Virus record (IMG/VR): IMGVR_UViG_3300009149_000033
Coordinates: 1-63,143 of that record
DNA: 63,143 bases
Source of the DNA: a virus
Reading direction: 5' to 3' (one strand)
The first letter of the stretch is position 1; each line of letters begins with the position of its first letter. The notes below the pieces were generated by a model. That model made no database searches, had not been told where the DNA came from, and was given only the letters and a program-made list of their open reading frames with translations. The translations under genes and the position numbers were made by a program. Of this stretch, positions 1,089-47,040 are shown in pieces.

Positions 1089-4000
1089 TTAAATATTATA
1101 CCAAAGGCACAAGGACTGAAAAGCATCAACAGAGACTTTATTATAAACTTTATGCAGCACACTCCCGTCCGGAGCGACAAGCTTTATCCGACATTTAGGG
1201 CCTATCAACTGGCTGTCGTACTCATTTAGCATGTCTATTATATTCTTCAAATGGTTTGATACCATAGGAACAATAGATTTTATTTCATATACGTAAAAGC
1301 CCAAATCATCTAAGTAGTTTTTTAGCCTGTCGTCTGCTAGGGCTTTTTCGTCCACTTCTACATCTTTATCTTTAGACTGCACTACTTTATCATTTTTAGT
1401 CTCAGAAAAAGTAACAGTAAAATTTATGTACGGGTCTGTGCCGTTACTCTCTGAAATAAAACTATGCTTCTGAATCTCATGCGACTGATTTGAGTGCCCT
1501 TCTTGCTCCGTTTGAGTGTCCTTTCTCTTAATATCTGGCTCTTCTTCTTTTTCTTCCGGAACCTCCTTTTCTTCGGGTTTTTCTATCTCAGGTTCTATTT
1601 CAGCCCCTGGCTCTTCTTCAGAAGAATGTTCTGTAGAATTAAACTCATTTTTAATATCAGGCAGTGCTGAGCCCTCTGCATTAGCTTCTTTTTCTAGCTG
1701 TGCTTTTTCTTTAAAATAATCGTTTGTAATAGAGAAGCTGTCGCCGTACTCAGCATCAACCTCTAAACCTACGGGCCATTTTAAACGTTCAGTAAACTCT
1801 CTTAGCTTCATTATTTCAGATATATTTTCTATAAAATAACCAAGCATGTCTTCTTTTACTTCATATACAATTTCATCATGCACAGGCATTAAGATACGGA
1901 TTTGATCGTCACCAAAACCGTTGCTATGTATCCATTTCCATACACGGTACAAAGCTATCTTAATAATATCCGCCCCTCCACCCTGAATGCAGCTGTTGAT
2001 TGCGCAACGGTCACCACGAGCCATAATCTGACGATCACTACTTCTGTAAAACTCAGTAAGAGGACGCCGACGACCAAAAGCGGTTTTACTATACCCTCTT
2101 TTCTTAGCTCTTTTAGCTTCATCTACTAACCACTTCGCTAATACATCATATTTTTTAAAAAAGTTAAATAGCATCTTCTTCGCGATGTCTACAGAAAGTT
2201 TAGCACGTACAGCAAATCCTCCCGCACCCCCACCATAAATTGTGTGGAAGTTAAGTGTATTGTGAGTTACTAAGCCCTCCGCAACATAGGTGTGGTCTCC
2301 TTTTATAGTAAGGTCCATTAACTCTACTGAATCATGAAACTCTTTTCCTTTTACCTTAGTTACCCATTCTTGACCCTTAAGAGTTTTTGCGGCCTTTGGT
2401 TTATCTATTAGTGCCTGTAGTTTAGCTTTCTTTATATTACTAATAAAACCTATATTCTTATAAAATTCCTCGGCACCTGCTCTACCAAATTGAACCTGGT
2501 AATAAACCCTGTCGTATCTTTTGGAAAGTTTTTCATATATATAAGATTTTACGTCAAATTGAGCCAGCAACAAAACTACGTCTCTAGCCAAGTCTATGTC
2601 TTTGGTACATATAGAAACGGTACCGGACTTATCAACTGTGCCATCCGTCTCAAAAAGAGCTTGTAAAAACCCTCTAGATACATCTTTAGTTGACCTTAAA
2701 ATCCAATCAGGTACTTTAAAAATCTTTTTATGCCTGCCTGAAAATCCTATTCTTTCACAAAATCTAGAAAAAACAGTAGACCCTACATTAATTTCCCATA
2801 AAGCCTGGTAACTTTCTGGCTTGTCTTTTCTTTTACGTAACTTTGCGCTACAAGGTAATCCTAGGCCCTCAGCAGTTCTAATAATATCTTCTTTTACGTC
2901 GGAGTATTTTTCAGAGCAAATAATACCGGCATGGTACCTGTGTATATGCCCATCTCCTAAAAGATACCCTAATAGCTTTCCCCACTGATAATTAGGCTTA
3001 ATGTAAGGTAAACTATCGCTAATGTTGTTATCTTTTCCTTTTGCCCAGAAATTAAAATGAATATCAGGAGAAACCTTTGGGTTAATTAACTTACAAGAAC
3101 TTGAGAGTATTTCTTGCCCTAGTTTTAAATCCTCTGCTCTTACCCACTCTCCTGCTGGAGTGAGGAATCTATGGTTGTATCCACATTTTATTTTATGGCC
3201 AGAAGAGGATATTATTGTTACCGCTTTTTTTACTCCCATATCATGTATAGCTTCTATCTTTTTAAGCTTACCGGTATGAGTAATTACTTTGTCTTTAAGT
3301 GTAAGCTCTTCTACAGGTATCCACCCTCTTTGTGTTGCTATCCTAGTACCTTTAGCTACGCACTTACCTAACCCACGTTCCTGCTTATTAATTTCTTCTT
3401 TGCCGTGGATAATCTTACCAGTAATAGTATGCAGATCTGCAGAGCCGTGATTAAACTCCTGGATCCATTTAGGCTCCCTAGACATGTTAGCTGCGATACG
3501 AAGTTCTTCACCACTATAGTCAATGGTAAATATCTTATATCCAGGGCGGGCTATTACTGCTCTACGCATATCTATAGAATCCGGGTCATTCTTATTATAG
3601 GTAGGTATGTTTTGGCAGTTGACTCCACAACACCCATCTACTTTTATACCCCTACCACCACTAGCAGAAAAACGTCCTGTATCCGCTCGTACCTGATTGA
3701 GTTGGAACTTTGCGTAATTATCCTCGTCAACATTATTTAAGAAATTTTCTATGTACGTGCCGAGAAGTTTAGTGTATCCGCGATAAGATAAAATCTTTTT
3801 TACGATAGGAGCTTCTTGTTCTATCAACACAAGAGTTTTTTCATCAGTCTTATACTGACCGCTTGCGCTCTTTTCTTTAAGAGGATAACGAATCTTAAGC
3901 TCGTCAAAAAGCAGTGTACCGAGCTGTTTAGGACTATTTATATCAAACTCACGCCCTGCTATAGCGTGTACATCTTTTAATATATTTTTCATACGACTTT

Positions 4001-4817
4001 GGACATCTTCTTTTATTTTAAGAAGATACTCGCGGTCTATCAAAACATGGTTGCGCTCCATCTCCATTGTAACGAAAAGACAACGCTTTTCAATCTTATA
4101 GATATACCAAGGACCTTGCTTACCGTCAGGATCTTGTTGGTCGATACTTTTCTTAAATACCAGGTATAACCCCAGCGTATTCATGGCATCACTAGCACCA
4201 TAGTATACAGCGGTCTGAGGAGGAACCATGTCAAACGCAACTACCTTCTTTTTAGAACCGGTAACCCCGAGCTCAGAAATTTCTATCATGGGACGTTTTA
4301 AAATATGCTCTGAAAGCCATTTTAATCCTTTATCTTTACGGGAGGCATCCTGAATAGCAGCCATAAGATAAGTATCTTCATATAAGTCTTCATCCTCAAT
4401 AATGATGCCATGATTCCTTAATACTTCTCCATCGTATTTAAAATTATGATAGACACAAATACAATTAGCTGTTAGTCTTTTTAGTTGCTGTACCATAAAT
4501 TTATATGGCACATTATACTCTTTATCCTCATGGGATACTGGTATGTATACTCCTTCGTTAGGAGATATAGCCAAACAGACTCCAACTATTTTTGCATATA
4601 CTCCCCCATTTTTTTTCCTACGTGTATTAAGACTCGTGGTCTCTAAGTCAAGCCCGCAAATACCTTTTTCGATAAGACGGTCTATATATTCTTCTACCTC
4701 TGTAGGTTTTGTAAGAAGTAAAAAAGTTTTATCTTGCATCCAAGGGCGAAGGTCTAATAATTCCTTGACGGCATCCTCAGTAAAAACATCTAGCATTCCG
4801 GTGGCAATATCACCCAT
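1089..4817 (-). CDS. polA: Family A DNA polymerase with 3'-5' exonuclease, intein-interrupted
   Basis: Replicative DNA polymerase, 1242 aa as translated and about 874 aa after splicing. Exonuclease domain: GLDLETTSL (D57, E59), HNFKYD (D129) and YGASD (Y206, D210). Polymerase motif A is TIDYSGEELRI (D433). Motif B is split: R481-G-L-G-K485 before the intein and TLNFHTIYG after it. Motif C is PVHDEIVYE (H980-D981-E982). There is no 5'-3' exonuclease domain. After the polymerase core (about residue 1035) comes a long Glu/Pro/Lys-rich linker and an extra folded-looking domain (about 1120-1242) that I do not recognise. I chose ATG at 4817 rather than the in-frame GTG at 4826 because AAAGG sits 8 nt before the ATG and the start overlaps the primase stop by 8 nt. 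Confidence 0.95.
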   Translation of the reverse strand: MGDIATGMLDVFTEDAVKELLDLRPWMQDKTFLLLTKPTEVEEYIDRLIEKGICGLDLETTSLNTRRKKNGGVYAKIVGVCLAISPNEGVYIPVSHEDKEYNVPYKFMVQQLKRLTANCICVYHNFKYDGEVLRNHGIIIEDEDLYEDTYLMAAIQDASRKDKGLKWLSEHILKRPMIEISELGVTGSKKKVVAFDMVPPQTAVYYGASDAMNTLGLYLVFKKSIDQQDPDGKQGPWYIYKIEKRCLFVTMEMERNHVLIDREYLLKIKEDVQSRMKNILKDVHAIAGREFDINSPKQLGTLLFDELKIRYPLKEKSASGQYKTDEKTLVLIEQEAPIVKKILSYRGYTKLLGTYIENFLNNVDEDNYAKFQLNQVRADTGRFSASGGRGIKVDGCCGVNCQNIPTYNKNDPDSIDMRRAVIARPGYKIFTIDYSGEELRIAANMSREPKWIQEFNHGSADLHTITGKIIHGKEEINKQERGLGKCVAKGTRIATQRGWIPVEELTLKDKVITHTGKLKKIEAIHDMGVKKAVTIISSSGHKIKCGYNHRFLTPAGEWVRAEDLKLGQEILSSSCKLINPKVSPDIHFNFWAKGKDNNISDSLPYIKPNYQWGKLLGYLLGDGHIHRYHAGIICSEKYSDVKEDIIRTAEGLGLPCSAKLRKRKDKPESYQALWEINVGSTVFSRFCERIGFSGRHKKIFKVPDWILRSTKDVSRGFLQALFETDGTVDKSGTVSICTKDIDLARDVVLLLAQFDVKSYIYEKLSKRYDRVYYQVQFGRAGAEEFYKNIGFISNIKKAKLQALIDKPKAAKTLKGQEWVTKVKGKEFHDSVELMDLTIKGDHTYVAEGLVTHNTLNFHTIYGGGAGGFAVRAKLSVDIAKKMLFNFFKKYDVLAKWLVDEAKRAKKRGYSKTAFGRRRPLTEFYRSSDRQIMARGDRCAINSCIQGGGADIIKIALYRVWKWIHSNGFGDDQIRILMPVHDEIVYEVKEDMLGYFIENISEIMKLREFTERLKWPVGLEVDAEYGDSFSITNDYFKEKAQLEKEANAEGSALPDIKNEFNSTEHSSEEEPGAEIEPEIEKPEEKEVPEEKEEEPDIKRKDTQTEQEGHSNQSHEIQKHSFISESNGTDPYINFTVTFSETKNDKVVQSKDKDVEVDEKALADDRLKNYLDDLGFYVYEIKSIVPMVSNHLKNIIDMLNEYDSQLIGPKCRIKLVAPDGSVLHKVYNKVSVDAFQSLCLWYNI
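2259..3362 (-). other. Intein with LAGLIDADG homing endonuclease, in polymerase motif B
   Basis: A 368-residue in-frame protein intron (polymerase residues 486-853). Block A starts at Cys1: CVAKGTRIATQRGWIPVEEL. Block B is KCGYNHRFLTPAGEW, with the usual TxxH threonine replaced by Gly. Two LAGLIDADG-type helices are visible, KLLGYLLGDGHI and GFLQALFETDGTV, each ending in the acidic metal ligand (D622 and D725), so the endonuclease looks intact. Block F/G is DHTYVAEGLVTHN, ending in the penultimate His and terminal Asn, and the next extein residue is Thr. All residues needed for splicing are present. It sits directly after the lysine equivalent to E. coli Pol I K758, so unspliced polymerase should be inactive. 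Confidence 0.95.
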
Positions 4818-5364
4818 TAACAGCACCTTTCTTTAATCTAATCACGGCATCTCTTATCTTAATAATAGATTCTTCAAATTTATCTTCGTCCGTGGAGTAC
4901 TTTAACAACATATAAGCAAAAACTAATCTTACGTACTTCTCCTGAGGTATTTCGTTCCTTATATCAGTTATTATATTGTGTAACTTTTCAAGGTATAGCT
5001 TCTTTGTGTCATATTTAACATGCTTAGCTTTTATCCTTTTTTGTTTCGCACCCTCTACCGCATCTGGTACATCAGATATATTTACGTGATACTTACGTAC
5101 TAGCCTATCTAATACTTCCCTAAAATTTGATCCATCTCTTTTAATAATATAGGAAAATAAATCCCAGCGCTCTTTACATGTCCAACAGTACATAGAATCA
5201 GTAGCTTTGTAAAACCGGGCACTTTTCTTCAAGTCTCTACCATGAAAAGGGCACGATATCTGCTCTTCTGAAAAGTCGGAGACAAGGACTCCATCTTCCT
5301 TTAGAACAGTAGCCAAGTTTATATACTCACGTATCTTATCTTTAAGTTTCGTTAAATCTTTCAT
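4810..5364 (-). CDS. Primase zinc-binding domain protein (CHC2 type), no catalytic domain
   Basis: A 184-aa protein that is essentially the DnaG-type CHC2 zinc domain: SCPFHGRDLKKSARFY gives C38 and H41, and MYCWTCKERWDLFSYI gives C60 and C63, followed by the usual 'dlfsyi' helix. In primases this domain reads the template trinucleotide. The TOPRIM/RNA polymerase domain that should follow is missing; instead there is a basic, helical C-terminal region of about 90 residues. The start is joined to the helicase stop (TAATG) and the end overlaps the polymerase start by 8 nt, so helicase, primase domain and polymerase are translationally linked. The catalytic half is either encoded outside this window or supplied by another protein. 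Confidence 0.85.
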   Translation of the reverse strand: MKDLTKLKDKIREYINLATVLKEDGVLVSDFSEEQISCPFHGRDLKKSARFYKATDSMYCWTCKERWDLFSYIIKRDGSNFREVLDRLVRKYHVNISDVPDAVEGAKQKRIKAKHVKYDTKKLYLEKLHNIITDIRNEIPQEKYVRLVFAYMLLKYSTDEDKFEESIIKIRDAVIRLKKGAVNG

Positions 5365-6893
5365 TAGCTATCAAGATCATAAATACTTATCATGTTATCC
5401 ATCATGTCAATATCACTGTCGTCACCAGCGTAATCATATATACATTTAGTTTTAAAATTTATACAGGCGTTGAGTGCTTCAAATAGTCTGTCCCTTCTGT
5501 TCTTCAAATTACATATTTTAAGCATTCCGCTTTTTCTTTCACTTTCTCCAGCAAAGATAGATATGATAACATCAGCTGAACGCTCGGCTTCGTGAGCATT
5601 TGATAGCGCCGTAGAATCGTACATGCCATCATTTTCTTTTGCTTTCCTATATCCATCACGATTAGTCTGAAAAGGAGAAAGCATTCTTATCCCTTTACCG
5701 TTATTAAAGGTCAGACAAAGCCTTTTAAGCCTCTTAATAACAGTGTTGAGATTCTGGTTATAGTCGTTACTTTTCTCGTTACGGTCTACTCCAAGCAAAC
5801 TGATGTAGTCAATGATAACAAACTGTAAATCTTCTCTATCATTCTGTAGCTCATACTGATACTGACTAAGTTTCAGTTCTATATCAGATACAGTAGTTAC
5901 AGCCTTATCTGGTTGCCACGCAAAAAATTTACCGTAGGGATTATTTTCCCTGAAGTCTTTAACTACAAGTTTGTAGTACTCGTATTCTTCATCTGTGAGG
6001 TTACCGTATACAACATCATTGTAATTAATTTTACCTACGTATTTAGCATATTCTGGATGTTTTTCTCGAAATAAAGGATGACAAGAGTGCAGGACATACA
6101 TAGCTCTACGAATCTCAGGCATAGACATTTCAAGGGTTACGAACGCTGTGTTAAATCCTGAGTAAAGAGCACGGTATGCCATATTTAGACAAAAAGTAGT
6201 TTTACAATGCCCTGTATACGCAGCAGCAATCATAAGTTCATGATTCTTTAAACCTTTTAAAGATGAATCTATTTTTTCTATACCGGTAAAGATACCAAGC
6301 ACGTCCGCAGGATTATGCTTTACTTCTTCATACTCTTTAATAGCCTCGTCTGCATCTTCTGCACTATTTATTTGAGATTCAAGTTTAATGTTTGTTATTT
6401 GCTGCTGAAGCTCTTTCGTCTCGCTTGCAAAATAACTTATGCCGTCCATGATCCCTTTAAGATTGCGCTTATTTATGGACATACCTGTAGTTGATACTTG
6501 CAGTGTATTAGTAAGAATACGCTCCATAGAAGATATGTCTTGCTCTTCTTTATACTCCTTTATAACCTGTCTAAAACTCTGACCAACATATGGTCGTTGC
6601 TGTGCGATATCAGACAATGAGGCAAGTACTGCTTCATTGCCCTCAGTACCCTCAAAATAATCCTTTAGGTATTCCAGGCTTGGGAGCTCAGGCCCATCTC
6701 CTCCATCACAACTTTTAAGAAAATCTAGAATAAAATGATAAAGTTTCTTATATGCAGGATCCTCTGGTTCTTTAAGATTTATCTGCTGCAAAGACCTAAA
6801 ATTTTTAACAAGGTCTTGCTGAGTAATAGTAGGCTTACCTTGTGCATTTCTAATATCTACTAAAGAACGAAAAACTGTCGCTAAATTAAACAT
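5364..6893 (-). CDS. DnaB-like replicative DNA helicase
   Basis: A 509-aa hexameric-helicase-type (RecA-fold, superfamily 4) protein. An N-terminal helical domain (about 1-150) is followed by a linker and the ATPase from about 200. The nucleotide loop is AAYTGHCKTTFCLNMA (G228, K231, T232), with Cys230 where family members normally have Gly. The DnaB hallmark FVTLEMSMPEIRRAM follows, the Walker B strand is FVIIDYISLL (D362), the Q-containing DNA-loop region is SPFQTNRDGY, and the arginine-finger region is LKNRRDR. It should form the ring that unwinds the lagging-strand template. The gene lies 11 bp after the loader-like gene and shares a TAATG with the primase-domain gene, consistent with a replisome operon. 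Confidence 0.9.
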   Translation of the reverse strand: MFNLATVFRSLVDIRNAQGKPTITQQDLVKNFRSLQQINLKEPEDPAYKKLYHFILDFLKSCDGGDGPELPSLEYLKDYFEGTEGNEAVLASLSDIAQQRPYVGQSFRQVIKEYKEEQDISSMERILTNTLQVSTTGMSINKRNLKGIMDGISYFASETKELQQQITNIKLESQINSAEDADEAIKEYEEVKHNPADVLGIFTGIEKIDSSLKGLKNHELMIAAAYTGHCKTTFCLNMAYRALYSGFNTAFVTLEMSMPEIRRAMYVLHSCHPLFREKHPEYAKYVGKINYNDVVYGNLTDEEYEYYKLVVKDFRENNPYGKFFAWQPDKAVTTVSDIELKLSQYQYELQNDREDLQFVIIDYISLLGVDRNEKSNDYNQNLNTVIKRLKRLCLTFNNGKGIRMLSPFQTNRDGYRKAKENDGMYDSTALSNAHEAERSADVIISIFAGESERKSGMLKICNLKNRRDRLFEALNACINFKTKCIYDYAGDDSDIDMMDNMISIYDLDS

Positions 6894-6904
6894 CTATATC
6901 TCCG

Positions 6905-7612
6905 TTAAATATTCGCATTATTTATTTGGGCGCTACGTTTTCTATTAACCGATAACTCTTCTGTACTACCGAAGCCGGGGTAAGCAAAGTTCTTGCTTAA
7001 ATCATACTTCTTAAAATGATCCTTTAGTACCTCTCCTAGTCCATCACTGTATTCTTTACTCTGTTGAAGAGAATTTATATCCGGGGCGTATATCCAGGTA
7101 GCTCTATTTACTCTTATTCTATTTTTAACGACATCAAGGATAGTTGTATCCATCGCGTTATTTTTAGCAACACTTATGAAACAAATACCAAGTAATTTAA
7201 AATTCTGTAGGTCATATAAAGTCTTTTCATCCTTACCTACAAAATAGTTATGCACTATTTGTATTCCGTCTAATAACTCAAAAGCTGTTACATTATTCCA
7301 GTAGAAGAGCATAAGAGACTTAAAGACGTAAAAAAATCTTTTTTCGGGGCCGAAAAACAGGCAATTCTTAATGCTACGTTTGTCCTCTTTTATTTCGGTG
7401 AATCTTTTTGCGATACTTATAAATTCTTTGGCGGGAGGGTCAGCTACAGTAAAAAGAGTAGGAAACTTCTTGTTTATTAGGGCTGCGTTTGTGCAGCAGC
7501 AAGGAATGATGGACTCCCCTAGTTTACCTTTTTCTCTATCAGGTTTACCCTGAATATGTAAAAACGAACTGTCCTTACAATAAGGACAAGGGCTTTCCCC
7601 TCGATAACTCAT
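6905..7612 (-). CDS. Helicase-loader-like (DnaC/DnaI-like) protein with degenerate ATP site
   Basis: A 235-aa protein. I start it at the ATG at 7612, with AGAGG 6 nt upstream, rather than at an ATG 90 bases earlier inside the SNF2 gene; this leaves a 22-bp gap. The N-terminus has a zinc-finger pattern: C9-P-Y-C12 and C38-C-C40 around IIPCCC, as in the N-terminal domains of several helicase loaders. The rest follows the loader AAA+ pattern, but where the P-loop (GxxGxGKT) belongs it reads NCLFFGPEKRFFYVFKSL, and the Walker B position reads LLGICFISVAKNNAMD without the DD pair. It therefore looks like a loader that has lost ATP binding. It lies directly before the DnaB-like gene, which supports a loading or adaptor role. 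The fold assignment is an inference. Confidence 0.5.
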   Translation of the reverse strand: MSYRGESPCPYCKDSSFLHIQGKPDREKGKLGESIIPCCCTNAALINKKFPTLFTVADPPAKEFISIAKRFTEIKEDKRSIKNCLFFGPEKRFFYVFKSLMLFYWNNVTAFELLDGIQIVHNYFVGKDEKTLYDLQNFKLLGICFISVAKNNAMDTTILDVVKNRIRVNRATWIYAPDINSLQQSKEYSDGLGEVLKDHFKKYDLSKNFAYPGFGSTEELSVNRKRSAQINNANI

Positions 7613-7634
7613 ACAAGACCTCTTTTTATAAAGC

Positions 7635-9395
7635 CTAATTTTTAAATACAGTTTCAAATAGAGCGTCAATCGAGCTCTCATCATCTTTAAACACGAGTTC
7701 ATCGGCTTTTGTGAACTCTAGTGAGCCCTCAGCTATGTCACCCATAACCTCGGTAATTAAGTCTTTTTTTTCGAACAGTACCTTCAATACGTGTTCATCT
7801 ATAGTACCCCTATTGACCATATGAATCAAATGAATGTGACCATATATACTACCTATACGCTGCGCTCTACCTATTGTTTGATAAAGGTCACCGTAAGACC
7901 AAGGAGTGTCATAGAATAATATAACATTTGCCGCCTGCAAATTGATAGCCGCAGAACCAGCTTGTGTTATAAAAATTGCATTTATATCTTGATTTAAATC
8001 TGAAAAATCTAATCGGGCCTTTTTTCTATCCTTAGAAGATACATCACCGCTAACCTTACGGTGTTTTAATTTAAGGTCATCAAGGATGGCCTCCAGGCGA
8101 GAAATGCCTGACTTAAACCTAGTAAAAACAATAACTTTTTCCGTAAACAATTCCTGCTCGAACAACCTTCTGAATTCCTGCTCTTTCGAGCTTTCTCCCT
8201 CTTCACGCATCCATTCAGGACCGTTTGAGATAAGTTGGCAATAACTAAGGGCTGCCATTTTACTGTTGGCTAAACCTTGCTCTGTCAAAGATTCATCGTA
8301 CTTCTTTTTATAGAACTCAAGCTTCTGGTAGTCTTTTTCACTTGGACCCGCATTAGTACTCATGTATTCTTCAAATTCAAAAAGCTTCCTTTTTACTTCC
8401 TTACGATATATATCGCCGTTAAGCGCTTGCTTATATAATCGTTCCTGGACAGTCGTCATATCAAGAATAACTTTTTTAGACATCAATCTTGGTAGCTCAT
8501 CCGCGACTTCACGAGTTCTTCTAAGAAGGAAATATGGATCTAATAAACTACGGAATTTCTCTAAATTCTTGTACCCAGACACAGTCTTTACATACCGTGT
8601 TTTACCTTTAATAAACCTGGGGACCTTCTTAAACTTCATGAAATTCTTTTCAAATTTAGGGGGTCCGCCAAACAGCCCAGGTACAACTACCCTGTATATA
8701 TTATATGCTTCCTCAAGTCTGTTTTTTATAACAGTGGCGCTCAAGCCATAGACTTTAAGCGCCTTTTCTGAAATCTTGTCCGCACCTAAATGTTTCATAC
8801 CCTTACGGTTTTTAAGCTCCTGAATCTCATCAAATATAACCATGAGCTCTTCGCCGCGATTCTCAATAAGAAAAATATAATCTTGTTGAATAGGGAAATA
8901 CCCACAAACAAGAATATCTGCATCTACTGTGTCATACTGTGCTTTTCTAGCCTCAAAGCCAGTTAATCTACTTACTTGCCCTCTTTTATGCCGGGCCTTC
9001 AACTCATCATAGTCCCCATATTCACCCGTAGCCTTAACCATCCCATAATAATTTTTAAGGGCATGGGAAGTAACACCAGAGGTAAATTTATCTATCTCCT
9101 CGCACCACTGGTCTACTGCAGATTTAGGGGTAGCAACGAGCATCTTAAGTTTTGGGTATTTGCTTCGACTGTAGCAGTAGCCTGCAATGGCCTGAACTGT
9201 TTTTCCTAAACCTACTCCGTCACCAAGTACCATTCTATTTAAAAGGAGGAAATGAAGGGCTCCTATAGCTTGATAGGGCCTTAGCTTGATATCGTCTCGA
9301 AGTAGTGCACAAGGCTTAAGAGAAGCCTTTTTACTTTTTCTCAACTTTTTTATAAAGTCATAGTTAGACGGAACAGCCGAATATTTAGTCGTCAA
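7635..9395 (-). CDS. SNF2-family DNA helicase/translocase
   Basis: A 586-aa superfamily 2 ATPase of SNF2 type. Motif Q is RPYQ (39-42); motif I is LGDGVGLGKTVQAI (K65, T66); motif II is FDEIQ (D189, E190) in place of DEAH; motif III is GLSAT; motif V is TQAGSAAINLQAANVI; motif VI is YQTIGRAQRIG (Q506, R510, R513). A charged insertion of roughly 100 residues separates the two RecA lobes. Such phage proteins are thought to move along duplex DNA in replication, recombination or displacement of bound protein. Translation starts at TTG, with AGAGGAG 6 nt upstream and an in-frame stop a few codons before, so no ATG start is possible. It is the first gene of the replication block. Confidence 0.9.
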   Translation of the reverse strand: MTTKYSAVPSNYDFIKKLRKSKKASLKPCALLRDDIKLRPYQAIGALHFLLLNRMVLGDGVGLGKTVQAIAGYCYSRSKYPKLKMLVATPKSAVDQWCEEIDKFTSGVTSHALKNYYGMVKATGEYGDYDELKARHKRGQVSRLTGFEARKAQYDTVDADILVCGYFPIQQDYIFLIENRGEELMVIFDEIQELKNRKGMKHLGADKISEKALKVYGLSATVIKNRLEEAYNIYRVVVPGLFGGPPKFEKNFMKFKKVPRFIKGKTRYVKTVSGYKNLEKFRSLLDPYFLLRRTREVADELPRLMSKKVILDMTTVQERLYKQALNGDIYRKEVKRKLFEFEEYMSTNAGPSEKDYQKLEFYKKKYDESLTEQGLANSKMAALSYCQLISNGPEWMREEGESSKEQEFRRLFEQELFTEKVIVFTRFKSGISRLEAILDDLKLKHRKVSGDVSSKDRKKARLDFSDLNQDINAIFITQAGSAAINLQAANVILFYDTPWSYGDLYQTIGRAQRIGSIYGHIHLIHMVNRGTIDEHVLKVLFEKKDLITEVMGDIAEGSLEFTKADELVFKDDESSIDALFETVFKN

Positions 9396-21858: not shown

Positions 21859-22749
21859 CTACTCCACTTCTATATAGTTTACCTTTACCTCTATATCTTC
21901 ACCGGCTTCATTAGCAACTTTTAACGAAACAGTATATGTTCCAGGAGTCGTGTAGATATTTTGAGGGCCTGTCTCAGAAGAACCGCGACCATCCCCAAAA
22001 GTCCAATCGTACTCCTCTAAACTTTCACCAGCACTTAAATCTGTAAAATCTACAGCTAACGGAGCACTACCCGATAAGGGTGTGCCCGAAAACTCAGAAC
22101 CAGGTTTAACTTGCCTTACTATCGTAGGCTTCGGCACGGACTCTCCCTCAGCGCCACGAGGCCCTGTTTCTCCTACTATCCCTACTCCAGGAAGTCCTGT
22201 ATGGCCCCTACTACCTTGCACTCCTTCTATACCTGTTACACCTAATATACCTGTTATACCTGTATAACCTGTTTCACCCTTTGGTCCTGTCTCTCCGCGA
22301 GGGCCTTCTAACGTGAAATTCCCATAACCCTTATATACTTCTATATCTTCCGGTTTTACTCTTTTTATACCTGTCAACCCAGCAGTACCATCTTGAGTCA
22401 ATTTAACCAACAGCAAAGGAACCTTCCCAGAGATATTAGCAAAGACTCTAATCTCGCCCGAAGACACTTTATTGTAAGAAATACTGGGAACAACTTCTAT
22501 CTGACCCTTATCCGTCAAAACTATAAGAGCATAAAGTATTCCATTTACTTCATTAAAGATTCTACTTGAGAGAGTCTTCATGTAGTTTGTTACTGTTTGC
22601 TGTACATCTATTTTTAGATCGTTGAAAAAAATCCAACGGTTATTTACTAAGGTAGAGCCGCCTTTGATAGTGTACACACTATCTCCATATACATTTCTAT
22701 CTTTTTCCTTTAAACCGAAGCTTTGTTTTTCTATTCTTTTAAGTCCCAT
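21859..22749 (-). CDS. Collagen-like fibre protein with PKD domain, 296 aa
   Basis: Three parts. Residues about 20-145 form an N-terminal domain shared with the 214-aa and 383-aa collagen-like proteins (GGSTLVNNRWIFFNDLKI aligns with SGSVVIDNKWVSYKSINY in the 214-aa protein, and both have a 'vkltQDGTaglt' / 'ilvQDGTndl' segment). Residues about 149-204 are uninterrupted or nearly uninterrupted Gly-X-Y triplets rich in GET, GPK, GIT and GVT; such tracts form a trimeric collagen triple helix. Residues about 217-296 form a PKD domain with the core DWTFGDGRG and a final TYTVSLKVANEAG strand. This suggests a short trimeric fibre with an adhesive tip. The ribosome site is poor (AGG at 8 nt). It follows the 214-aa gene by 27 bp. 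Confidence 0.9.
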   Translation of the reverse strand: MGLKRIEKQSFGLKEKDRNVYGDSVYTIKGGSTLVNNRWIFFNDLKIDVQQTVTNYMKTLSSRIFNEVNGILYALIVLTDKGQIEVVPSISYNKVSSGEIRVFANISGKVPLLLVKLTQDGTAGLTGIKRVKPEDIEVYKGYGNFTLEGPRGETGPKGETGYTGITGILGVTGIEGVQGSRGHTGLPGVGIVGETGPRGAEGESVPKPTIVRQVKPGSEFSGTPLSGSAPLAVDFTDLSAGESLEEYDWTFGDGRGSSETGPQNIYTTPGTYTVSLKVANEAGEDIEVKVNYIEVE

Positions 22750-22776
22750 ATTAAAACCTAAATTATTATAAGATTA

Positions 22777-23421
22777 TTAACTAAACGATTGAAAGGGAAA
22801 ATGAATAGTCCAACTAACACCAGTCAATCCTTGCTCCCCTATTTCTCCTTGGGCACCTATACCGTCTATTCCTGTCTCTCCTATATGCCCTGTTATCCCC
22901 CAGGGTCCCATTTGCCCTATTACCCCTGTTACTCCTCTAAGACCTGTATCTCCAGGCTCTATACCGCTCATACCTTGTGTACCAACTATATTCTTGTCTT
23001 TTATATTACCCGCGCCTGAAAAGACAACAATACTTGAGTCCGTTATACTTTTAAATGAATTAAGATCGTTAGTTCCATCCTGTACAAGTATAATCCCTAC
23101 AAAAGGTAAAAAAGTTGTGATTGCCGGAACAGGCACTCCGTTATTAGAAGAGTACTTAACTTGAGTACCTTCTGCCGTTCTAATCGTACCAAAGCTATCT
23201 ATTCCTATAACGAGCATCACGGAATAGCTTCTGTTTAAGAAAAATCTAGTACGAGGGGAAACTACTACATCCTTTATATAGTCCCTTATCTTATAATTTA
23301 TACTCTTATAAGATACCCATTTATTATCAATAACAACAGAACCAGAGCTTATGTTAACGGTATCCTCTGATATAGCTCTTACTTTTTTACCAGTTATTAA
23401 ATTATTATTAATCTTAATCAT
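22777..23421 (-). CDS. Collagen-like fibre protein, 214 aa
   Basis: N-terminal beta domain (about 15-140) of the type shared with the 296- and 383-aa proteins, including VVIDNKWVSYKSINYKI and VGIILVQDGTNDLNSF, followed by a Gly-X-Y tract (about 147-201; GLRGVTGVIGQMGPWG and GETGIDGIGAQGEIGEQG) and only about 13 residues after it (WTIHFPFQSFS). The 296-aa sister carries a PKD domain at that point, so this protein looks like a tip-less version, or one whose tip has been lost. AGGAAG precedes the ATG. It is probably trimeric and attached to the tail through the shared N-terminal domain. Confidence 0.85.
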   Translation of the reverse strand: MIKINNNLITGKKVRAISEDTVNISSGSVVIDNKWVSYKSINYKIRDYIKDVVVSPRTRFFLNRSYSVMLVIGIDSFGTIRTAEGTQVKYSSNNGVPVPAITTFLPFVGIILVQDGTNDLNSFKSITDSSIVVFSGAGNIKDKNIVGTQGMSGIEPGDTGLRGVTGVIGQMGPWGITGHIGETGIDGIGAQGEIGEQGLTGVSWTIHFPFQSFS

Positions 23422-23433
23422 ATTATCTTCCTA

Positions 23434-26400
23434 TTAATCAAATATCAAAGAAGGTCCTTTTTTACGGACAAAACCTGAAGGTGAAATCTCATTAGAGCCT
23501 AATGGTATATAAACTGTAACACCTCCATTTTCACACTCAGTTAAAGACCCAGACCCCTTAAAAACTGCTGCTGAAGCTTCTATGTCTGTGCCATCTACTG
23601 AGCTGTCTATTGTAGTGGTTGTATCTGTAACTATAATAGACCTTGTTACGGATTCTGTTTGGCTAAAAGAGTCAACTACAGTAAGCGTAACATTGTAGGT
23701 GCCTGTATTATTAAATACGTAAGAAAAAGTCTGAGCGCTAGAAACCGTACCTATACCAGATATCTCCCAAGCCCAAGTAGCTACCGAGTTATTAGATATA
23801 CCGTTAAATAGCACAGTTAAAGGAACTTTACCTGTAGATGGAGTCGCAAGAAATCCTATCTTTAGGTCAGAAGACCCAACAGTTATCTGAGCCGTTTTAT
23901 TTACAGTTATTAAAGAAGTTTCTTCTACGTTTAAATACCATATAATATCTACAGATACTGTATAAGTTCCGATGTTACTGTACACGTAGCTAGGTGTAAA
24001 CTCCTCAGAGTCAACTACACCGTCATTTGTAAAGTCCCACTGCACTTCACTTATAGTACTTGGCTGTCCATTAAGTAATGAAAAATTAACCGTTAGAGGA
24101 GCTTCTCCTGAAGAAGTAGAAGCAAATATGTATATATCCTCTACCACAGTAAAAGGCTCTACTACTGTGTATACTGTACTCTCCGTATCGGTAGCTTCAA
24201 GTTTAATGCTATAGGTTGCAGGAGCCAATATTTGTTGTGTAAAAACTTTATCCAGCGGATCAGTCGTACTCTTTGAAAAAACAACAATCTCTCCTAAACT
24301 AGGATCATCATAAATAATTTCCCAATCCCATTGTACTATACCAGAATCATTCACAGGAGTAATAATAAAAGTTTGTGGTACGTTCCCAGGAGTAGGAGCT
24401 ATGCTTATTTCAAGAGCGTCCGTTACGGTAACAGTTTTAGATACACTTGCATTAAACCCATATATATTATATACAGTCATTAAAGGATTAAACACCCCTA
24501 CTCCCGTATATGTGTGTAGAATAGTAGAACTTATAGTAGCACCTGTAAAACCATCCCCAAAGTCCCACTCCCAACCTGTTGGAGACCCTATGCTAGCATC
24601 TGTAAATAATCCAGTAAATGGTGTCTTGCCGCTATCTGGGGTAACTGTAAAATCAAGACTTAAGTCAGACACAAAAACTCTTAGTTCTGAAAGATTTGAA
24701 TCTCCCGCATTATAGTTAAAAACTGCTTCCGTAGGTAAACCTTCATCTAAGGTTAAAACAGCATCAAAAATACCTGCGGTAGTAAAGGTATGACTAACGC
24801 TGTAAGTAGCTCCTGGATTTGCTTTAAAATGGACCGGAGAACTATCCCCAAAATCCCACTTTAAAGTGTTAGGAGGTCCTCCTAAAATAGTAGTGGTGTA
24901 GGATACTGGATTATTTATGTACAAAGCATTAGGGTTAACAGTTATAGTAAGACCGATAACTACTAACTCAGTTGACGAGGATACAGTCTGTTTAGTGTAG
25001 TCTAATCCAGACACTCCAATATCTCTAGCAATAGCTTCTACCGTATAAGTACCTTCAGTGAGGTACCCACTATACTGCAATCCCGTAACATTAGAATCAG
25101 TATCTCCATTACCTAAATCCCAGGAGAAAGCCTCATACGGAGGGTCTGGTATAGGGTCTAAGGGTCTAGTAGCTCCTGTTACCCCGATATCAAAAGTTTT
25201 AGGCACACCCCCGTACCAGGCATCAGGGTAAGCTATAACACTATAACTTAATTCTTTTACAACTACAATGTATCCTACTTTAGTTTCGGTTGTTCCAGTA
25301 TCTCCATTTATATAAAGAGAAACAGTATAAACTCCCTCTCCTACGTATTCGTGCGTAGGACTTCTAGTAGTAGAAGTACCGCCATCACCAAAGTCCCAAT
25401 TCCAGGAAGTAGCTCCCGTATCATATAGGGGCTCAAACGAAACATTTACAGCATAATTAGCCCCTCCAAAAGTAGCTTTAGCTACTATCTCATTATCTAC
25501 ATCTTTGTAAATAAAATTTGTAGCATCCCCTTTAAGGCTTAAAACTAACCCGAAATAAAATGCTCCAACACCAGTTCTAGACTCACCCCACAAACCTACA
25601 GGATAGTTTGTATAAGATCCAGACCCAGGGATAGAAATACTAGAACCTATCCTAATGTAAGAAAAGCCTTCTTTTGTATCGGAGATAATAGAAGTAAAAG
25701 AGGGCCACGATATTCCTAAATTTTGTTGATTAGTACCTGTATATGTTATTCCTGTTCCAGACCATGTCGTGTCTGTTTGAGCTACATCTTGTAAATCTAT
25801 TGAATTGTAGGTCCAGGAACCGGGTGTAACCGCAGGAGTATCAATAACAGAATCTAGTATATCCGTGTCGCTATCTTTTGAACCATAAGGAAAACTACTA
25901 GAATCTCCGGGAGTAACACCTTCTGCTTGAAACTTAAAACACCCCATACCGTGATTATCAGCACCTTCAGCATTTAAATAAAAAGCATCTGAGTAACTAT
26001 GGGACCCGGTCACTGCTATCCAGTCATAAGGATTATCTACAGAATACTCTGCAGTAATAACACCACTAGTACGAGTAAGCCTACAATAGACTTTTCTAAA
26101 AGGAGAATAACTTACTGTAGCAGAGCCTATATTATCAAAAGTTAAAGTACCTGGATCGTACGTGAATCCTGTTTCTACAGCATCAGTAGAAGAATTTATA
26201 ACCAATATTTTTTGAGATATATTACCTGTATTTACATCTGCTAGAGCAAAGCACATTTCTAGTATAAAATCGCCGGTTAATGAAATACCCGCTGGAGTTA
26301 GTTGTACGCTAGTATTCCCATTCTGTACCGCTACATAACTACCGGAACCCACAGGCCTTTCCTCAAGCTCAAACTTATTAGCATCAGTAGTAAACTCAGA

Positions 26401-28407
26401 GTTCCACCAACTATCAAATTCTCCAGCAAAAGGATCTTCTATATATGCCCACCCATCTTCTACCCAAGAAGGGATTTCTTCGAAAAATGCTATAGGAGAC
26501 CCAGAGGAAATTAGGTTACAACCCATTATATCTTTACTACCTGAACCTACCTTAACTTGCCCAGAAGCATTAAAGAACATATCTTTAATTTCTGTATTAC
26601 CTACATAAGGATAAACCACATAACCAGACAGGCTTATATCAGTGTCCGTATATACTACTCCATTGTATAAACTAATACCTGAAAAAGTTGCGCTATTTGC
26701 TTTAATACCCCAAGGCCCGTTTGTACCGTTATCCCAATCAATTACTTTATTATTTGAAAAAGGATTTAATTCGTTACGCCACACTAAATCGTCAGTTGAT
26801 TCTAAAGTTATATCCCTATACCCTTTAGCACAAAAAATAGATCTATTTTTAAGAGATACTACATCTGATAGATAAGCGTAAGTTGCCGGATAAGAAGAGT
26901 CAGACCCGTCTGTTACCGAAGTATCATTACTTGTGCTTATATCCACATAATAGTAAGACGGAAAATTAATAACACCGTATATAGACTCTCCTATAGCGAA
27001 CTCCTCTAAATCTATTTCAGAAAAAGACGGAAGCGAAGGAGTAGACCAGCTATACTCATTCCCTCCTCCATCAACATACGTTCCTGAAGGATCCCCTTGT
27101 ATATCTGAAAAGTCTGATCCTCCAAATTTAGTATTAGAAATAGTAACGGTAGTATTATTTTGAGCGCTTACAGAAGTACTACCAGAAGAAGCCCCCTCTA
27201 TTAAGCACCCATCTACGTTTAAGTCACTTGCTATGTTTGAGATATAGGCGTCACCCACCAAAGTAGAATTTACCATGTCCCCGAAATACATATACAATAT
27301 GACAGGACCAGAACCTACGTATACATACATATTTTCTATTTCTGCCAAATTTAGCGACGAAACTAAATTATAGAGTATTCCGTTTTTTGTAGTAGCGTAC
27401 AGGCTTGAGGAGCTATCAAAAGAATAAGATCCTCCAAAATCTATCCTCCAAGGACCATATTTGCCGAGATTCCAAGCTTCTATAGTATATCTACTACTAG
27501 CGAGAGGAGTATAATCAGAAGATAAAGTTTTTGATCCTCTACATTTAAAAGTAAGACCGTCTGTGGTTATAGCTATAAACTCATCCCAACCTATACAATC
27601 TTCCCCATAATAACCGTTATTCCCTGTTGAAGATTCATTAAAATTTACATAATATGTTTTACCGTTAGCCCAACTATCCCCATAACCAACCCCTCCTATA
27701 GATGTTATGTCAGAAGGAGTTCCTCCTCCTAAAGAAAAATCTGTGAGGTTTTTAGAAGTTATAGTAGGCTTAACAGGAGGAGTCCAACCATAAGTAATAT
27801 TAGACTCGTTTATTGTCCCAGTGCCCGGGAACAAAAAAGCTGCAGAATCCGCTAGGTCAGTTATACAATTACTTATATTTAGAGTAGCAGATCCCTCTAT
27901 ACCTATAGGTTTTCCAATAAAAGCGCATCTAGATATATTATTCACACTACTATAAAAACCTACCTTAGTGGATATAGATGGAGACACAGAATAAAAAGTG
28001 CAGTCTTCAACATCTCCATTAATGCGGGAACTGCCTCCTACCAAAATATCAAAATACATCCTTTTAGCGCCGACAGGTCCATTTAAATATATAGAACCAG
28101 CCTGAATTATCCCGTCCTCTAAATAAGTTGAGGTAGAGAAAGCATTAACACTTGGAATATTTATACGCCAAGGACCATATTCGTCTAAATCCCAAGCAAT
28201 AAGAGATACATTGGTAAAAAAGGTATAAGTAAGAACATAAGTACTATAATTCTTAGTGCCTCTTAATAAAAACACAGTATTATTTGTTGAAGAATTCGAT
28301 AAAGAAGTTATCATCTGTTCCGCAGAATAAGGGTCAGTACTAGTACCTACGTGACCTACACTTGTATAACTGTCGTCTAAAAAAACATATATTCTTCTTT
28401 GCGCCAT
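23434..28407 (-). CDS. Giant fibre/adhesin with three GPW modules, LamG-like domain and seven PKD domains
   Basis: A 1657-aa secreted-adhesin-like virion protein. Three copies of a module begin near residues 5, 248 and 483, each running from a YVxx...PYS-like start through an F..(K/R)G strand to a 'W(D/N)....GPW(R/G)I' motif (WDLDEYGPWRI, WNLGKYGPWRI, WDNGTNGPWGI) and then Ser/Thr/Gly-rich beta-helix-like sequence. Residues about 659-860 look LamG/concanavalin-like (SLTGDFILEMCFALADV). From about 955 to 1600 there are seven PKD-type Ig-like domains; the clearest cores are WNWDFGDGG, WDFGDSSP and WEWDFGDGF, with degenerate ones at WDLGNGDT, WDWEIIYDD, WDFTNDG and WAWEISG. The last about 60 residues are a separate tail. 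It probably binds host surface glycans. Confidence 0.85.
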   Translation of the reverse strand: MAQRRIYVFLDDSYTSVGHVGTSTDPYSAEQMITSLSNSSTNNTVFLLRGTKNYSTYVLTYTFFTNVSLIAWDLDEYGPWRINIPSVNAFSTSTYLEDGIIQAGSIYLNGPVGAKRMYFDILVGGSSRINGDVEDCTFYSVSPSISTKVGFYSSVNNISRCAFIGKPIGIEGSATLNISNCITDLADSAAFLFPGTGTINESNITYGWTPPVKPTITSKNLTDFSLGGGTPSDITSIGGVGYGDSWANGKTYYVNFNESSTGNNGYYGEDCIGWDEFIAITTDGLTFKCRGSKTLSSDYTPLASSRYTIEAWNLGKYGPWRIDFGGSYSFDSSSSLYATTKNGILYNLVSSLNLAEIENMYVYVGSGPVILYMYFGDMVNSTLVGDAYISNIASDLNVDGCLIEGASSGSTSVSAQNNTTVTISNTKFGGSDFSDIQGDPSGTYVDGGGNEYSWSTPSLPSFSEIDLEEFAIGESIYGVINFPSYYYVDISTSNDTSVTDGSDSSYPATYAYLSDVVSLKNRSIFCAKGYRDITLESTDDLVWRNELNPFSNNKVIDWDNGTNGPWGIKANSATFSGISLYNGVVYTDTDISLSGYVVYPYVGNTEIKDMFFNASGQVKVGSGSKDIMGCNLISSGSPIAFFEEIPSWVEDGWAYIEDPFAGEFDSWWNSEFTTDANKFELEERPVGSGSYVAVQNGNTSVQLTPAGISLTGDFILEMCFALADVNTGNISQKILVINSSTDAVETGFTYDPGTLTFDNIGSATVSYSPFRKVYCRLTRTSGVITAEYSVDNPYDWIAVTGSHSYSDAFYLNAEGADNHGMGCFKFQAEGVTPGDSSSFPYGSKDSDTDILDSVIDTPAVTPGSWTYNSIDLQDVAQTDTTWSGTGITYTGTNQQNLGISWPSFTSIISDTKEGFSYIRIGSSISIPGSGSYTNYPVGLWGESRTGVGAFYFGLVLSLKGDATNFIYKDVDNEIVAKATFGGANYAVNVSFEPLYDTGATSWNWDFGDGGTSTTRSPTHEYVGEGVYTVSLYINGDTGTTETKVGYIVVVKELSYSVIAYPDAWYGGVPKTFDIGVTGATRPLDPIPDPPYEAFSWDLGNGDTDSNVTGLQYSGYLTEGTYTVEAIARDIGVSGLDYTKQTVSSSTELVVIGLTITVNPNALYINNPVSYTTTILGGPPNTLKWDFGDSSPVHFKANPGATYSVSHTFTTAGIFDAVLTLDEGLPTEAVFNYNAGDSNLSELRVFVSDLSLDFTVTPDSGKTPFTGLFTDASIGSPTGWEWDFGDGFTGATISSTILHTYTGVGVFNPLMTVYNIYGFNASVSKTVTVTDALEISIAPTPGNVPQTFIITPVNDSGIVQWDWEIIYDDPSLGEIVVFSKSTTDPLDKVFTQQILAPATYSIKLEATDTESTVYTVVEPFTVVEDIYIFASTSSGEAPLTVNFSLLNGQPSTISEVQWDFTNDGVVDSEEFTPSYVYSNIGTYTVSVDIIWYLNVEETSLITVNKTAQITVGSSDLKIGFLATPSTGKVPLTVLFNGISNNSVATWAWEISGIGTVSSAQTFSYVFNNTGTYNVTLTVVDSFSQTESVTRSIIVTDTTTTIDSSVDGTDIEASAAVFKGSGSLTECENGGVTVYIPLGSNEISPSGFVRKKGPSLIFD

Positions 28408-28408
28408 A

Positions 28409-29233
28409 CTATATACCTAATTCCTCTTTATCTATGTCCATCAAATCTTTAACCCAAGTATCTGTTAAAGTTACTCCTAAAGCAAATCTCCAATTATATA
28501 AAGTTATGCTCTGACCTGCTTCATACACATAAGGGCACCAAACGTCTCCTCCACCTATTCTTTCTGCTAGGTTATACGCTATTGAGTATTCTAACCCCTC
28601 ACTATCTATACCTTCTCTAGCAGGCACTATTTTATCATCTACAGAATATCTCATAGTACCGATATTATCAACACATACCCACCTTAAAAAATGCCATTGA
28701 TTATCCTCTAAATCTACGCCTACAGATTTATTTATCAGCTGACTCTCAGAATTATTAAAAACAAACTTATAATCCCCATCCTCTCTTAACAACATAAACT
28801 TAAGCGAACTCTCAGACTCCAAAACATCTCCTGCATTATCTTCTACTGCCAGAGGGACCACATAGTCACCGTTTTGGTAGGAAGGAGATTTTATCCACCC
28901 TATAGTAATAAATTCAGTACATGCTTTATATGGGACTGTCTCAGCGCTTGTTCCAGCATAATGCTCGTTGAGTGAAAACTTATTGTCGAAAGAATTAATA
29001 TAAGCTGTTTTTGTTGCTACAGAGGACTCTAAAGTAGAGGTGTTTGTCGCAGTTAGAACAACAGAGTACTGCCCCTCATCCGCATAATAATGGGAAGGGT
29101 TCTCTTCTGTAGAAGTGCTACCATCGCCAAAATCCCAAACGTATGAATCTGCGTTAACAGAATAATTATAAAAAGTTACTTTAAAAGGGTAAACACCCGC
29201 TAAAGGGGAACCACTAAACTTGGAGAGGACCAT
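28409..29233 (-). CDS. PKD plus LamG-like fibre protein, 274 aa
   Basis: Residues about 5-80 are a PKD domain (YVWDFGDGSTST, then GQYSVVLTATN), starting almost at the N-terminus. Residues about 85-270 look like a LamG/concanavalin A-like sandwich (FITIGWIKSPSY near the first sheet, DNQWHFLRWVCVDNIGTMRY in the middle, SITLYNWRFALGVTLTD at the end). There is no N-terminal attachment domain of the kind seen in its neighbours, so it may attach through a partner. The gene follows a 67-bp spacer, with GGGAG 6 nt before the ATG, and ends one base before the 1657-aa gene. Confidence 0.85.
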   Translation of the reverse strand: MVLSKFSGSPLAGVYPFKVTFYNYSVNADSYVWDFGDGSTSTEENPSHYYADEGQYSVVLTATNTSTLESSVATKTAYINSFDNKFSLNEHYAGTSAETVPYKACTEFITIGWIKSPSYQNGDYVVPLAVEDNAGDVLESESSLKFMLLREDGDYKFVFNNSESQLINKSVGVDLEDNQWHFLRWVCVDNIGTMRYSVDDKIVPAREGIDSEGLEYSIAYNLAERIGGGDVWCPYVYEAGQSITLYNWRFALGVTLTDTWVKDLMDIDKEELGI

Positions 29234-29300
29234 CTAAATCTCCCACAAATAAATAAAATATAAGTATCAATTAGAACTGAGATATTAATAGATCATAATA

Positions 29301-31805: not shown

Positions 31806-32330
31806 TTATATCTCCAAACACCTTCTATGATCTATGTACCCAACCTTCATACCTATATCTGTAATATACTCACAGACACACCGACAATTACAGCTAATTT
31901 CATTATTAAACTCTAAACCTATTAACACGTCTCTTCTTATCAGCATGCATGCAATATCCGTATGAAAATTATCAATCAATTTATAAATTTTTTTAGCCCT
32001 TGTGTTTATCGCGACAGCTGCAAATTCTTTGTTATCTTTTAAAAAATTAATTAAATCCTTTACATCATTCTCCCGCTCTAGGACGACATCTCTATTTAGC
32101 ATCAAAAAATATTCTGCTTCGTATTTTTTTAAAGCTTCATTTTTAATTATATTTCTACATTCCGACATAGACAAGTAACCTTCTTTAGCTCTACCATATC
32201 TGCTACTCATAGGCCTGGATACTGTCATTATATCTATGTCTACTGTTTGCTTGTACAATCCTTCGTATATTTCTTTCCTAATAGCATGCCCATCTTTAAG
32301 TGGTATCATGGCTACCAACCGTTCACTCAT
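31806..32330 (-). CDS. Small GT-A-type (family 2-like) glycosyltransferase
   Basis: A 174-aa protein with the layout of a minimal family 2 glycosyltransferase: an N-terminal beta-strand and helix (VAMIPLKDGHAIRKEIYEGL), a second strand ending in VSRP, a helix with SECRNIIKNEALKKYEAEY, then the strand-loop where the metal-binding DxD belongs, reading YFLMLNRDVVLE, so the first Asp is Asn. A Cys-rich segment (SCNCRCVCEY) and ITDIGMKVGYIDH match the end of the fold. It is much shorter than typical enzymes. It overlaps the 514-aa fibre gene by ATGA and abuts the 834-aa fibre gene. It is the only enzyme-like gene in the adhesin block, so fibre glycosylation is the natural guess. Catalytic competence is uncertain. 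Confidence 0.6.
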   Translation of the reverse strand: MSERLVAMIPLKDGHAIRKEIYEGLYKQTVDIDIMTVSRPMSSRYGRAKEGYLSMSECRNIIKNEALKKYEAEYFLMLNRDVVLERENDVKDLINFLKDNKEFAAVAINTRAKKIYKLIDNFHTDIACMLIRRDVLIGLEFNNEISCNCRCVCEYITDIGMKVGYIDHRRCLEI

Positions 32331-33871: not shown

Positions 33872-33874
33872 TTA

Positions 33875-35026
33875 TTAAAACTCCAGTATTGTGTCCCAAA
33901 TATCAGCGCCTGTTATTGTTACTAGCTTATAAACATAGCTGGTACCGGCTAAGTTTGTTGCTGTTAATTTTACTATATAATCTCCAGTAGTTGCATAATT
34001 ATGCTGAGGATTTTGACTAGTAGAGCTCCCACCGTCCCCAAAATCCCAAACCCAAGAGGTTGGGAAAAATTTAGAGTTGTCCACAAATCTAAATATATAA
34101 TTTACTGCATCTATAGTCTCTACTGAAAAATCTGGTAAAGGAACTTGCTCTAGCTTAACCCAAGCAGATATAGTACCTCCTGTATACCCTTGGGCTCCTG
34201 TTATGCTACCTCCTATACCAAAAGGATAGTAAATAGCTCCAGACTCTCCAAAAGGTAAAAACATATTTCTTTTATAAGCAGAGTAACCGCCGTTATATAC
34301 TACCTTATGAGCATAATCTACTATACCTTCTTCACGTATAAAATAAGATTCTCCTCCAGACAGTCCCCACTGCACACTTCTTTCGTAGATAGAATAATCA
34401 GTTAAGTCAAAGTCATTAGCTTTAAACTTTAGATAAAGCTGTAGTCTTTCATCAGGGTAATATCCTGTCTCCCCTTTTGGACCCGTATCCCCAGAAATGC
34501 CAAAGCCTGTTATACCCTGTAAACCCGTTAATCCTTGTAACCCGTCTTGTCCGGTTTCCCCCTGAGCTCCTGTCTCTCCTTGAGCTCCTGTTTCTCCTAG
34601 TAAACCTTTTACTCCTGTTTCTCCTTGCACCAAGCTATTGCTTATAGAAAAAGTAGACATTTGTGAAAATTCATTCACATGGTCTACCACATAACTTTTA
34701 GACTCTTGCTTTAGAACAAATTGTGCTATAGGAATAGTATTTCTAAAAGCTTGGGCAGAAGCCCTAGAAACATAACGGGTGTAGAGTCCTACCTTTTGGT
34801 ATACGAACTGAACCGGCTTTAATTGATAGTATACATTTACAACAGCATACTTACCTTTATCCTCTGGGAGAGTAAAAAAGTCCCTATTTAAAATAGGTAT
34901 GACCAAGTTGTTAATTTTAATAAATCTATTATTATATACGATAGTGCCTATATTAGCAAGATACTGTACCCCTGTAGAGGTCTCTTTTTTAATAATAGAA
35001 TTGTTATTTGTTATTTTGAGCTCCAT
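33875..35026 (-). CDS. Collagen-like fibre protein with half LamG-like domain and PKD tip, 383 aa
   Basis: N-terminal domain (about 20-130) related to the other two collagen-like proteins ([18 protein letters not shown]). Gly-X-Y tract at about 135-188, rich in GETGAQG repeats. From about 193 a LamG-like beginning is visible ([20 protein letters not shown] through [12 protein letters not shown]) but it stops at about 295, where a full LamG domain would continue. A complete PKD domain follows directly (about 298-373; [15 protein letters not shown], then [15 protein letters not shown]). The joint looks like a recombination product. AAAGG precedes the ATG. It is probably a trimeric fibre. Confidence 0.85.
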
Positions 35027-46814: not shown

Positions 46815-47040
46815 CTAAAATCCTTTTTCCAGTCTTTCTTTCATAGTCCTTAATTTCATATTCTAATGCCTTATTTACAGCGTACAATATAGGGCTTATA
46901 AATTTATCTATAAATTTATTACCCTTTCTTGTTTTAGAAGTATCTACCACTTTCCACTTTACAGGTCCTGAGGAAGTGTCTCCGAGTCCTCTTCGTCCTC
47001 CTGTATCCTCTTGAACAGGTCTCTTGCCTTTTGGTCGCAT
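46786..47040 (-). CDS. Small basic protein, 84 aa, starting inside the giant gene
   Basis: The start ATG at 47040 lies 82 nt inside the 3' end of the 3536-aa gene in another frame, but it has the best ribosome site of the neighbourhood (AAGGAG, 5-nt spacing), so I accept it as the true start. The 3' end overlaps the 561-aa gene by 29 nt. The product is Lys/Arg-rich (MRPKGKRPVQEDTGGRRGLG; KDYERKTGKRILDERK), with a short amphipathic helix around FIDKFISPILYAVNKALEYE. No family recognised. Being overlapped on both sides, it is easy to miss. Confidence 0.7.
   Translation of the reverse strand: MRPKGKRPVQEDTGGRRGLGDTSSGPVKWKVVDTSKTRKGNKFIDKFISPILYAVNKALEYEIKDYERKTGKRILDERKTKDKD

Follow-up and report, generated by a model that had tools for sequence, protein, structure and literature searches.

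An intein interrupts the catalytic helix of the polymerase encoded by polA in a large, uncultured tailed phage, which raises the question of whether the element resides there as a mobile parasite or as a switch on replication. The window analyzed here is the whole stretch of 63,143 nucleotides and corresponds to the entire metagenome-derived IMG/VR virus contig G000. The PolA open reading frame encodes a precursor of 1245 residues, intein included, with no stop within the frame. The product was recognized as a family A DNA polymerase by motif A (DYSGEEL), motif B (RGLGKTLNFHTIYG), motif C (VHDE), and a 3'-5' exonuclease domain (PF01612, E=1e-12) that lies wholly within the N-extein. The Pfam match of the exteins to DNA_pol_A (PF00476, E=5.9e-79) comprises two pieces that are split exactly at the intein. 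No second intein was found in the window.

The surrounding genes are shared by a group of syntenic phages, in which SNF2 helicase, a 265-residue protein, DnaB, primase, PolA, and a 234-residue protein make up the common set. The last of these, at 363-1067 in the window, adjoins PolA throughout the group and is without a significant family match. A conserved C-terminal PolA module (window 1092-1400), located behind an acidic linker, is common to the group and apparently also to the LR745208 lineage; Pfam gave no significant match for it. Further along the window lie a series of tail-fibre-like genes (21859-35026), which contain PKD domains and collagen-like GxTG repeats, and, inside a tail/baseplate gene region, one 3536-residue open reading frame of unassigned function (46959-57569).

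Table 1. Positions of the polymerase gene, the intein and its motifs, the neighboring cassette, and inteins at site Q. Positions refer to the window unless a contig is named; insertion points are marked by a slash.
Feature	Position	Strand	Remarks
PolA gene (family A DNA polymerase with 3'-5' exonuclease domain)	1089..4826	-	GTG start as listed; exact start uncertain
N-extein, 488 aa	3363..4826	-	Exonuclease domain, motif A (DYSGEEL), first part of motif B up to RGLGK
Intein, 368 aa, Cys1 to His-Asn, LAGLIDADG endonuclease	2259..3362	-	PolA residues 489-856
Block A, CVAKGTRIATQR	3327..3362	-	Nucleophile Cys1; alignment
Block B, GHKIKCGYNHRFL	3162..3200	-	Gly61 = B:7, His64 = B:10; alignment
LAGLIDADG helix 1, LLGYLLGDG	2949..2975	-	Acidic D137; alignment
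LAGLIDADG helix 2, LQALFETDG	2640..2666	-	Acidic D240; Pfam and alignment
Block F, VELMDLTIKGDHTYVA	2280..2327	-	Alignment
Block G, EGLVTHN	2259..2279	-	Terminal His367-Asn368; alignment
C-extein, 389 aa	1092..2258	-	+1 Thr, remaining O-helix (TLNFHTIYG), motif C (VHDE), acidic linker, conserved C-terminal module
Vacant site Q, QG/GGAD	1979..1980	-	+1 = Gly, no nucleophile
Syntenic replication cassette	4810..9395	-	CHC2 primase-like gene, DnaB-like helicase, 265-aa protein, SNF2 helicase
Site Q intein	L008:3759-5006		
Site Q intein	L010:5280-6527		
Site Q intein	L015:8729-9973		
Site Q intein	L005:6244-7623		

The initial annotation had identified the inserted element as an intein, and this identification held. 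Pfam profiles matched above their curated cut-offs, with Intein_splicing at E=6.6e-12 (45.9 bits against a cut-off of 35.8), Hint_2 at E=1e-6, and LAGLIDADG_3 (PF14528) at E=8e-20. Cys1 follows directly after GLGK, the block B histidine is present at B:10 (GYNH), THN precedes a +1 threonine at the C-terminal junction, and the exteins join without a gap when compared with E. coli PolA and with intein-free relatives. By its sequence, the element is thus a class 1-type, LAGLIDADG-bearing intein. Assignment to class 3, in which there is no position 1 nucleophile and a WCT triplet is found, was ruled out by the presence of Cys1. Block F and the two LAGLIDADG helices are likewise as in other class 1 LAGLIDADG inteins, from which this one differs by having glycine in place of the more usual threonine at B:7, a residue that assists but does not strictly define the class; it is otherwise ordinary. 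The annotated impression that the endonuclease helices are intact also stands, as both acidic residues are retained, no stop breaks the frame, and the profile is matched strongly, and the endonuclease is predicted to be competent for cutting. Predicted masses are 100.4 kDa for spliced PolA and 41.7 kDa for the intein, and the GC content of the intein is 36.5%, compared with 38.5-38.7% for the exteins. An AlphaFold model of the intein built from a six-row alignment reached a pLDDT of 47 and was discarded as too poor.

The glycine in block B had been regarded as unusual and as a possible influence on the rate of splicing. Gly61 is real, but the argument built on it fails. Across 32 aligned inteins, B:7 is variable (Thr 12, Ser 11, Gly 3, Asp 3, Leu 2, Asn 1), so that threonine occupies it in only 12. 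Threonine at B:7 is an assisting residue (PMC4031507), and a functional block B of the DxxH type has been described (PMC6195587). Because the homologous intein of contig L010, only 58% identical, has glycine as well, Gly61 is not a recent lesion, nor is it unusual, and a block B “defect” was rejected.

To place the insertion point, we joined the exteins of the window and its relatives and aligned them with the PolA sequence of E. coli. The joined sequence R-G-L-G-K/T-L-N-F-H-T-I-Y-G corresponds one to one, and without gaps, to E. coli R754-R-S-A-K758/A-I-N-F762-G-L-I-Y766-G. The intein therefore lies directly after the equivalent of E. coli Pol I K758, and Arg-754, Lys-758, Phe-762, and Tyr-766 are conserved across the two exteins. 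Both the insertion exactly after the motif B lysine and the restoration of an unbroken O-helix on joining of the exteins, as originally proposed, are borne out by this alignment up to G767. In Pol I, Lys-758 contacts the phosphates of the incoming dNTP, and the O-helix closes over the nascent pair. Because the established structure of Pol I places Lys-758 and the O-helix at the dNTP, an insertion of 368 residues at motif B should abolish polymerization in the precursor. We infer that the window PolA is spliced and that its precursor is inactive.

This position, referred to here as site B, is occupied by inteins in at least seven other PolA lineages (L010, LR745208, L038, L040, L041, L043, and L044), with extein identities of 19-54% among the carriers. 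Most of these were recovered by scanning IMG/VR for the C-terminal junction with a degenerate DNA pattern, HN-[S/T/C]-x-N-F-x3-Y-G-G. The scan returned 11 contigs, all 11 of which encode PolA with an intein at exactly site B; L038, L040, L041, L043, and L044 were new lineages, whereas L039, L042, and L047 are LR745208-like. The start of the L040 intein was later obtained in full. Further carriers may escape these patterns, which require NF at 761-762 and the given junction. The junction pattern was far more productive than searches of IMG/VR with intein sequence, in which the window intein alone gave no match and a three-intein alignment matched only the L010/L011 contigs; a scan of genome contigs using the intein alignment turned up no relative. 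A related junction pattern yielded 11 matches in 84,980 bacterial and archaeal genomes, all in unrelated or too-short open reading frames, and no cellular PolA carrier of a site B intein was found in that set. Bacillus phage SBSphiC, which appeared as a junction carrier with an E=7 match, was rejected on finding that its PolA is uninterrupted.

Several characterized elements resemble this intein in part. The DNA polymerase I intein of Silviavirus phages (Romulus, Remus, KSAP7/11; PMC7497331) is also a LAGLIDADG-bearing intein of a phage PolA, but is located in the TGR motif (TGTA then TSRLS), ∼90 residues upstream of motif B, and is ∼24% identical or less. In the Romulus PolA itself (L003:781-6318), the intein occupies this third site, TGTA/TSRLS, and farther downstream, at the place of a reported group I intron, the reading frame is interrupted. 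An intein at motif B, belonging to the same intein clade, is present though unannotated in the PolA of LR745208.1, a 485-kb uncultured phage; it differs in being ∼24% identical, in its +1 Ser, and in being accompanied by an additional intein at QG/T. The mycobacterial inteins DnaBi1 and DnaBi2 (PMC6195587) likewise interrupt a replication enzyme at its active-site motifs, in one case at the P-loop GK/S, but DnaBi1 is a class 3 intein with demonstrated redox control, unlike the class 1-type intein of the window. The group I intron in the DNA polymerase I gene of SPO1 (PMC2814812) is similarly a mobile element at a conserved spot of a phage PolA, but it acts at the RNA level and is inserted at N675/L676 (E. 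coli numbering) rather than at motif B. No description of a PolA intein at motif B was found in the open-access literature searched, in which coverage of intein papers is partial and an earlier description is possible. Motif B of phage PolA is therefore a recurrent and apparently undescribed intein site, although the kind of intein is itself known.

The site B inteins fell on one side of a branch supported at 94/94 in a tree with phage inteins of TerL, portal, RNR, tape measure, and other PolA sites as outgroups, and they remained together (90/88) after addition of the SNF2, TerL, RecD, DnaB, and RNR inteins of related phages. An HMM made from four other, distant site B inteins scored the window intein at 93 bits and that of L010 at 60 bits, compared with at most 41 bits for any non-site-B intein included at that stage. 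These sequence comparisons give moderate support to common descent at the site. The PolA of L038 groups with that of the SPO1-like phage SBSphiC, whereas its intein groups with huge-phage inteins. This suggests horizontal movement within the family, to be read with caution as L038 is a long branch.

The large phages related to that of the window are rich in inteins, which occur in the SNF2 P-loop (L069, L073, and L075), at a second SNF2 site (DE/CQ in L069), in the P-loops of TerL (L068) and of a RecD-like protein (L071, with a second site), in DnaB (L070), and in RNR (L072), with the TerL, RecD-like, and RNR names resting on motifs read by eye rather than on profile searches. The SNF2 helicase of the window itself has a Walker A motif, GVGLGKT, without an intein. 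Several of the insertions lie at Walker A GK/T or GK/S, like that at PolA motif B in the window group. Because those in SNF2, terminase, and the RecD-like helicase match the motif B position, it might be supposed that motif B (G-x-G-K then T-L in the window clade) mimics a Walker A P-loop and that inteins jumped between ATPase P-loops and the O-helix via GK/T. This we consider improbable. The best match of the window intein outside site B is the TerL intein of the phage of L009, at 78.8 bits compared with 73.7 bits for the site B intein of L038, but close kinship to the Walker A inteins was rejected because the tree keeps the site B inteins together.

Evidence on mobility came from PolA relatives of the synteny group in IMG/VR, which were read by hand at site B and at a second position, site Q, located after a conserved QG (E. 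coli QG/TAAD). Site B is filled and site Q vacant in the window; both are filled in L010/L011 and also in the huge-phage record LR745208; site Q alone is filled in L008/L009 and L015/L016; and both are vacant in L007, L014, and L018. The site B intein of the window is 58% identical to that of L010/L011, and the exteins of the window and L010 are 54-58% identical. In the L010 intein, of 292 residues, LAGLIDADG helix 1 lacks its acidic residue and the next ∼75 residues are missing, but the splicing residues are all retained. L010 and the empty-site L008/L009 form a sister clade supported at 100/100, and the extein tree of the site B phages calls for four or more gains or losses. As read from these genes, invaded, decayed, and vacant sites make up a textbook homing cycle. 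Mobility, which the initial annotation had proposed, is thus indicated at least for the past because carriers and vacant sites are interspersed. Recent movement of the window copy did not find support, and a near-identical phage with a vacant motif B site, the sign of recent homing, was not found among the relatives compared.

The element is very probably a selfish, autocatalytically splicing, mobile LAGLIDADG intein of class 1 type in a phage PolA. Under this proposal, polA would be translated as the full-length precursor, Cys1 would attack the Lys-Cys bond, and the acyl group would move to the +1 Thr. The terminal Asn would then cyclize and the exteins join to a product of ∼100 kDa, in which the O-helix, and hence dNTP binding, would be restored. 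The released 42-kDa intein would then function as a homing endonuclease, cutting the intein-less polA of co-infecting phages, and repair of the cut gene would copy the intein in, with the family at site B cycling through invasion, endonuclease decay, and loss. Motif B would serve as the site because an essential motif tolerates no imprecise loss; retention of an element because its imprecise loss would kill the polymerase is the argument of PMC2814812.

The proposal that splicing acts as a switch on replication did not fare so well. In such a scheme, the intein would be domesticated, and conditional splicing, responding to redox state, temperature, or timing, would delay phage DNA synthesis until conditions suit. 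There is precedent among the inteins of replication proteins, as splicing of Msm DnaBi1 is reversibly blocked by oxidation (PMC6195587), and the intein of the window has seven cysteines, including Cys60 in block B. However, cysteine at this position (B:6) is found in 19 of 32 aligned inteins and, being common in unrelated inteins, is no special sign, and a cysteine trap looked for at extein position -3 of the window PolA is absent (LGK precedes Cys1). The location in the catalytic helix means that the precursor should be polymerase-dead with a complete exonuclease domain, but an exonuclease-only polymerase would be of little gain to a lytic phage. Phages of the synteny group replicate without a site B intein, and L010 has retained its intein after decay of the endonuclease, as expected of a parasite. 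Nothing here separates a switch from a parasite, and there is no positive evidence, regulatory feature, or specific sequence feature for a switch, which we regard as quite unlikely.

Less readily set aside, though still doubtful, is the view that the intein is an old resident, inherited vertically and no longer homing, with an endonuclease that only looks intact. The window and L010 inteins have diverged about as much as their exteins, which would fit long-standing vertical inheritance of these two copies rather than recent homing; intein and exteins are similar in GC content, and the L010 intein shows that such loss of the endonuclease is possible. Against this stand the preserved LAGLIDADG acids, open frame, and profile match, the several losses that empty sisters inside the clade would need without homing, and the presence of a site B-family intein in the very distant PolA of L038, which points to horizontal movement. 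That the gene is an assembly chimera or a pseudogene with non-functional splicing is scarcely credible: the record is a metagenome-derived viral contig, but all 1245 codons are open, the catalytic residues of polymerase and intein are intact, and the identical junction recurs in independent contigs of different metagenomic origin.

Beyond this single intein, whose mechanism is ordinary, the catalytic O-helix of phage family A polymerases emerges as a recurrent intein home, with at least eight lineages including that of the window. Within one syntenic phage group, PolA genes with both sites empty, either filled, or both filled, together with one decayed endonuclease, exist side by side, and the homing cycle, as well as whether active-site inteins ever act as switches, may thus be tested in one enzyme. 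The finding also calls for caution in polA-based virome surveys, in which residue 762 types are read from the very stretch that such inteins interrupt.
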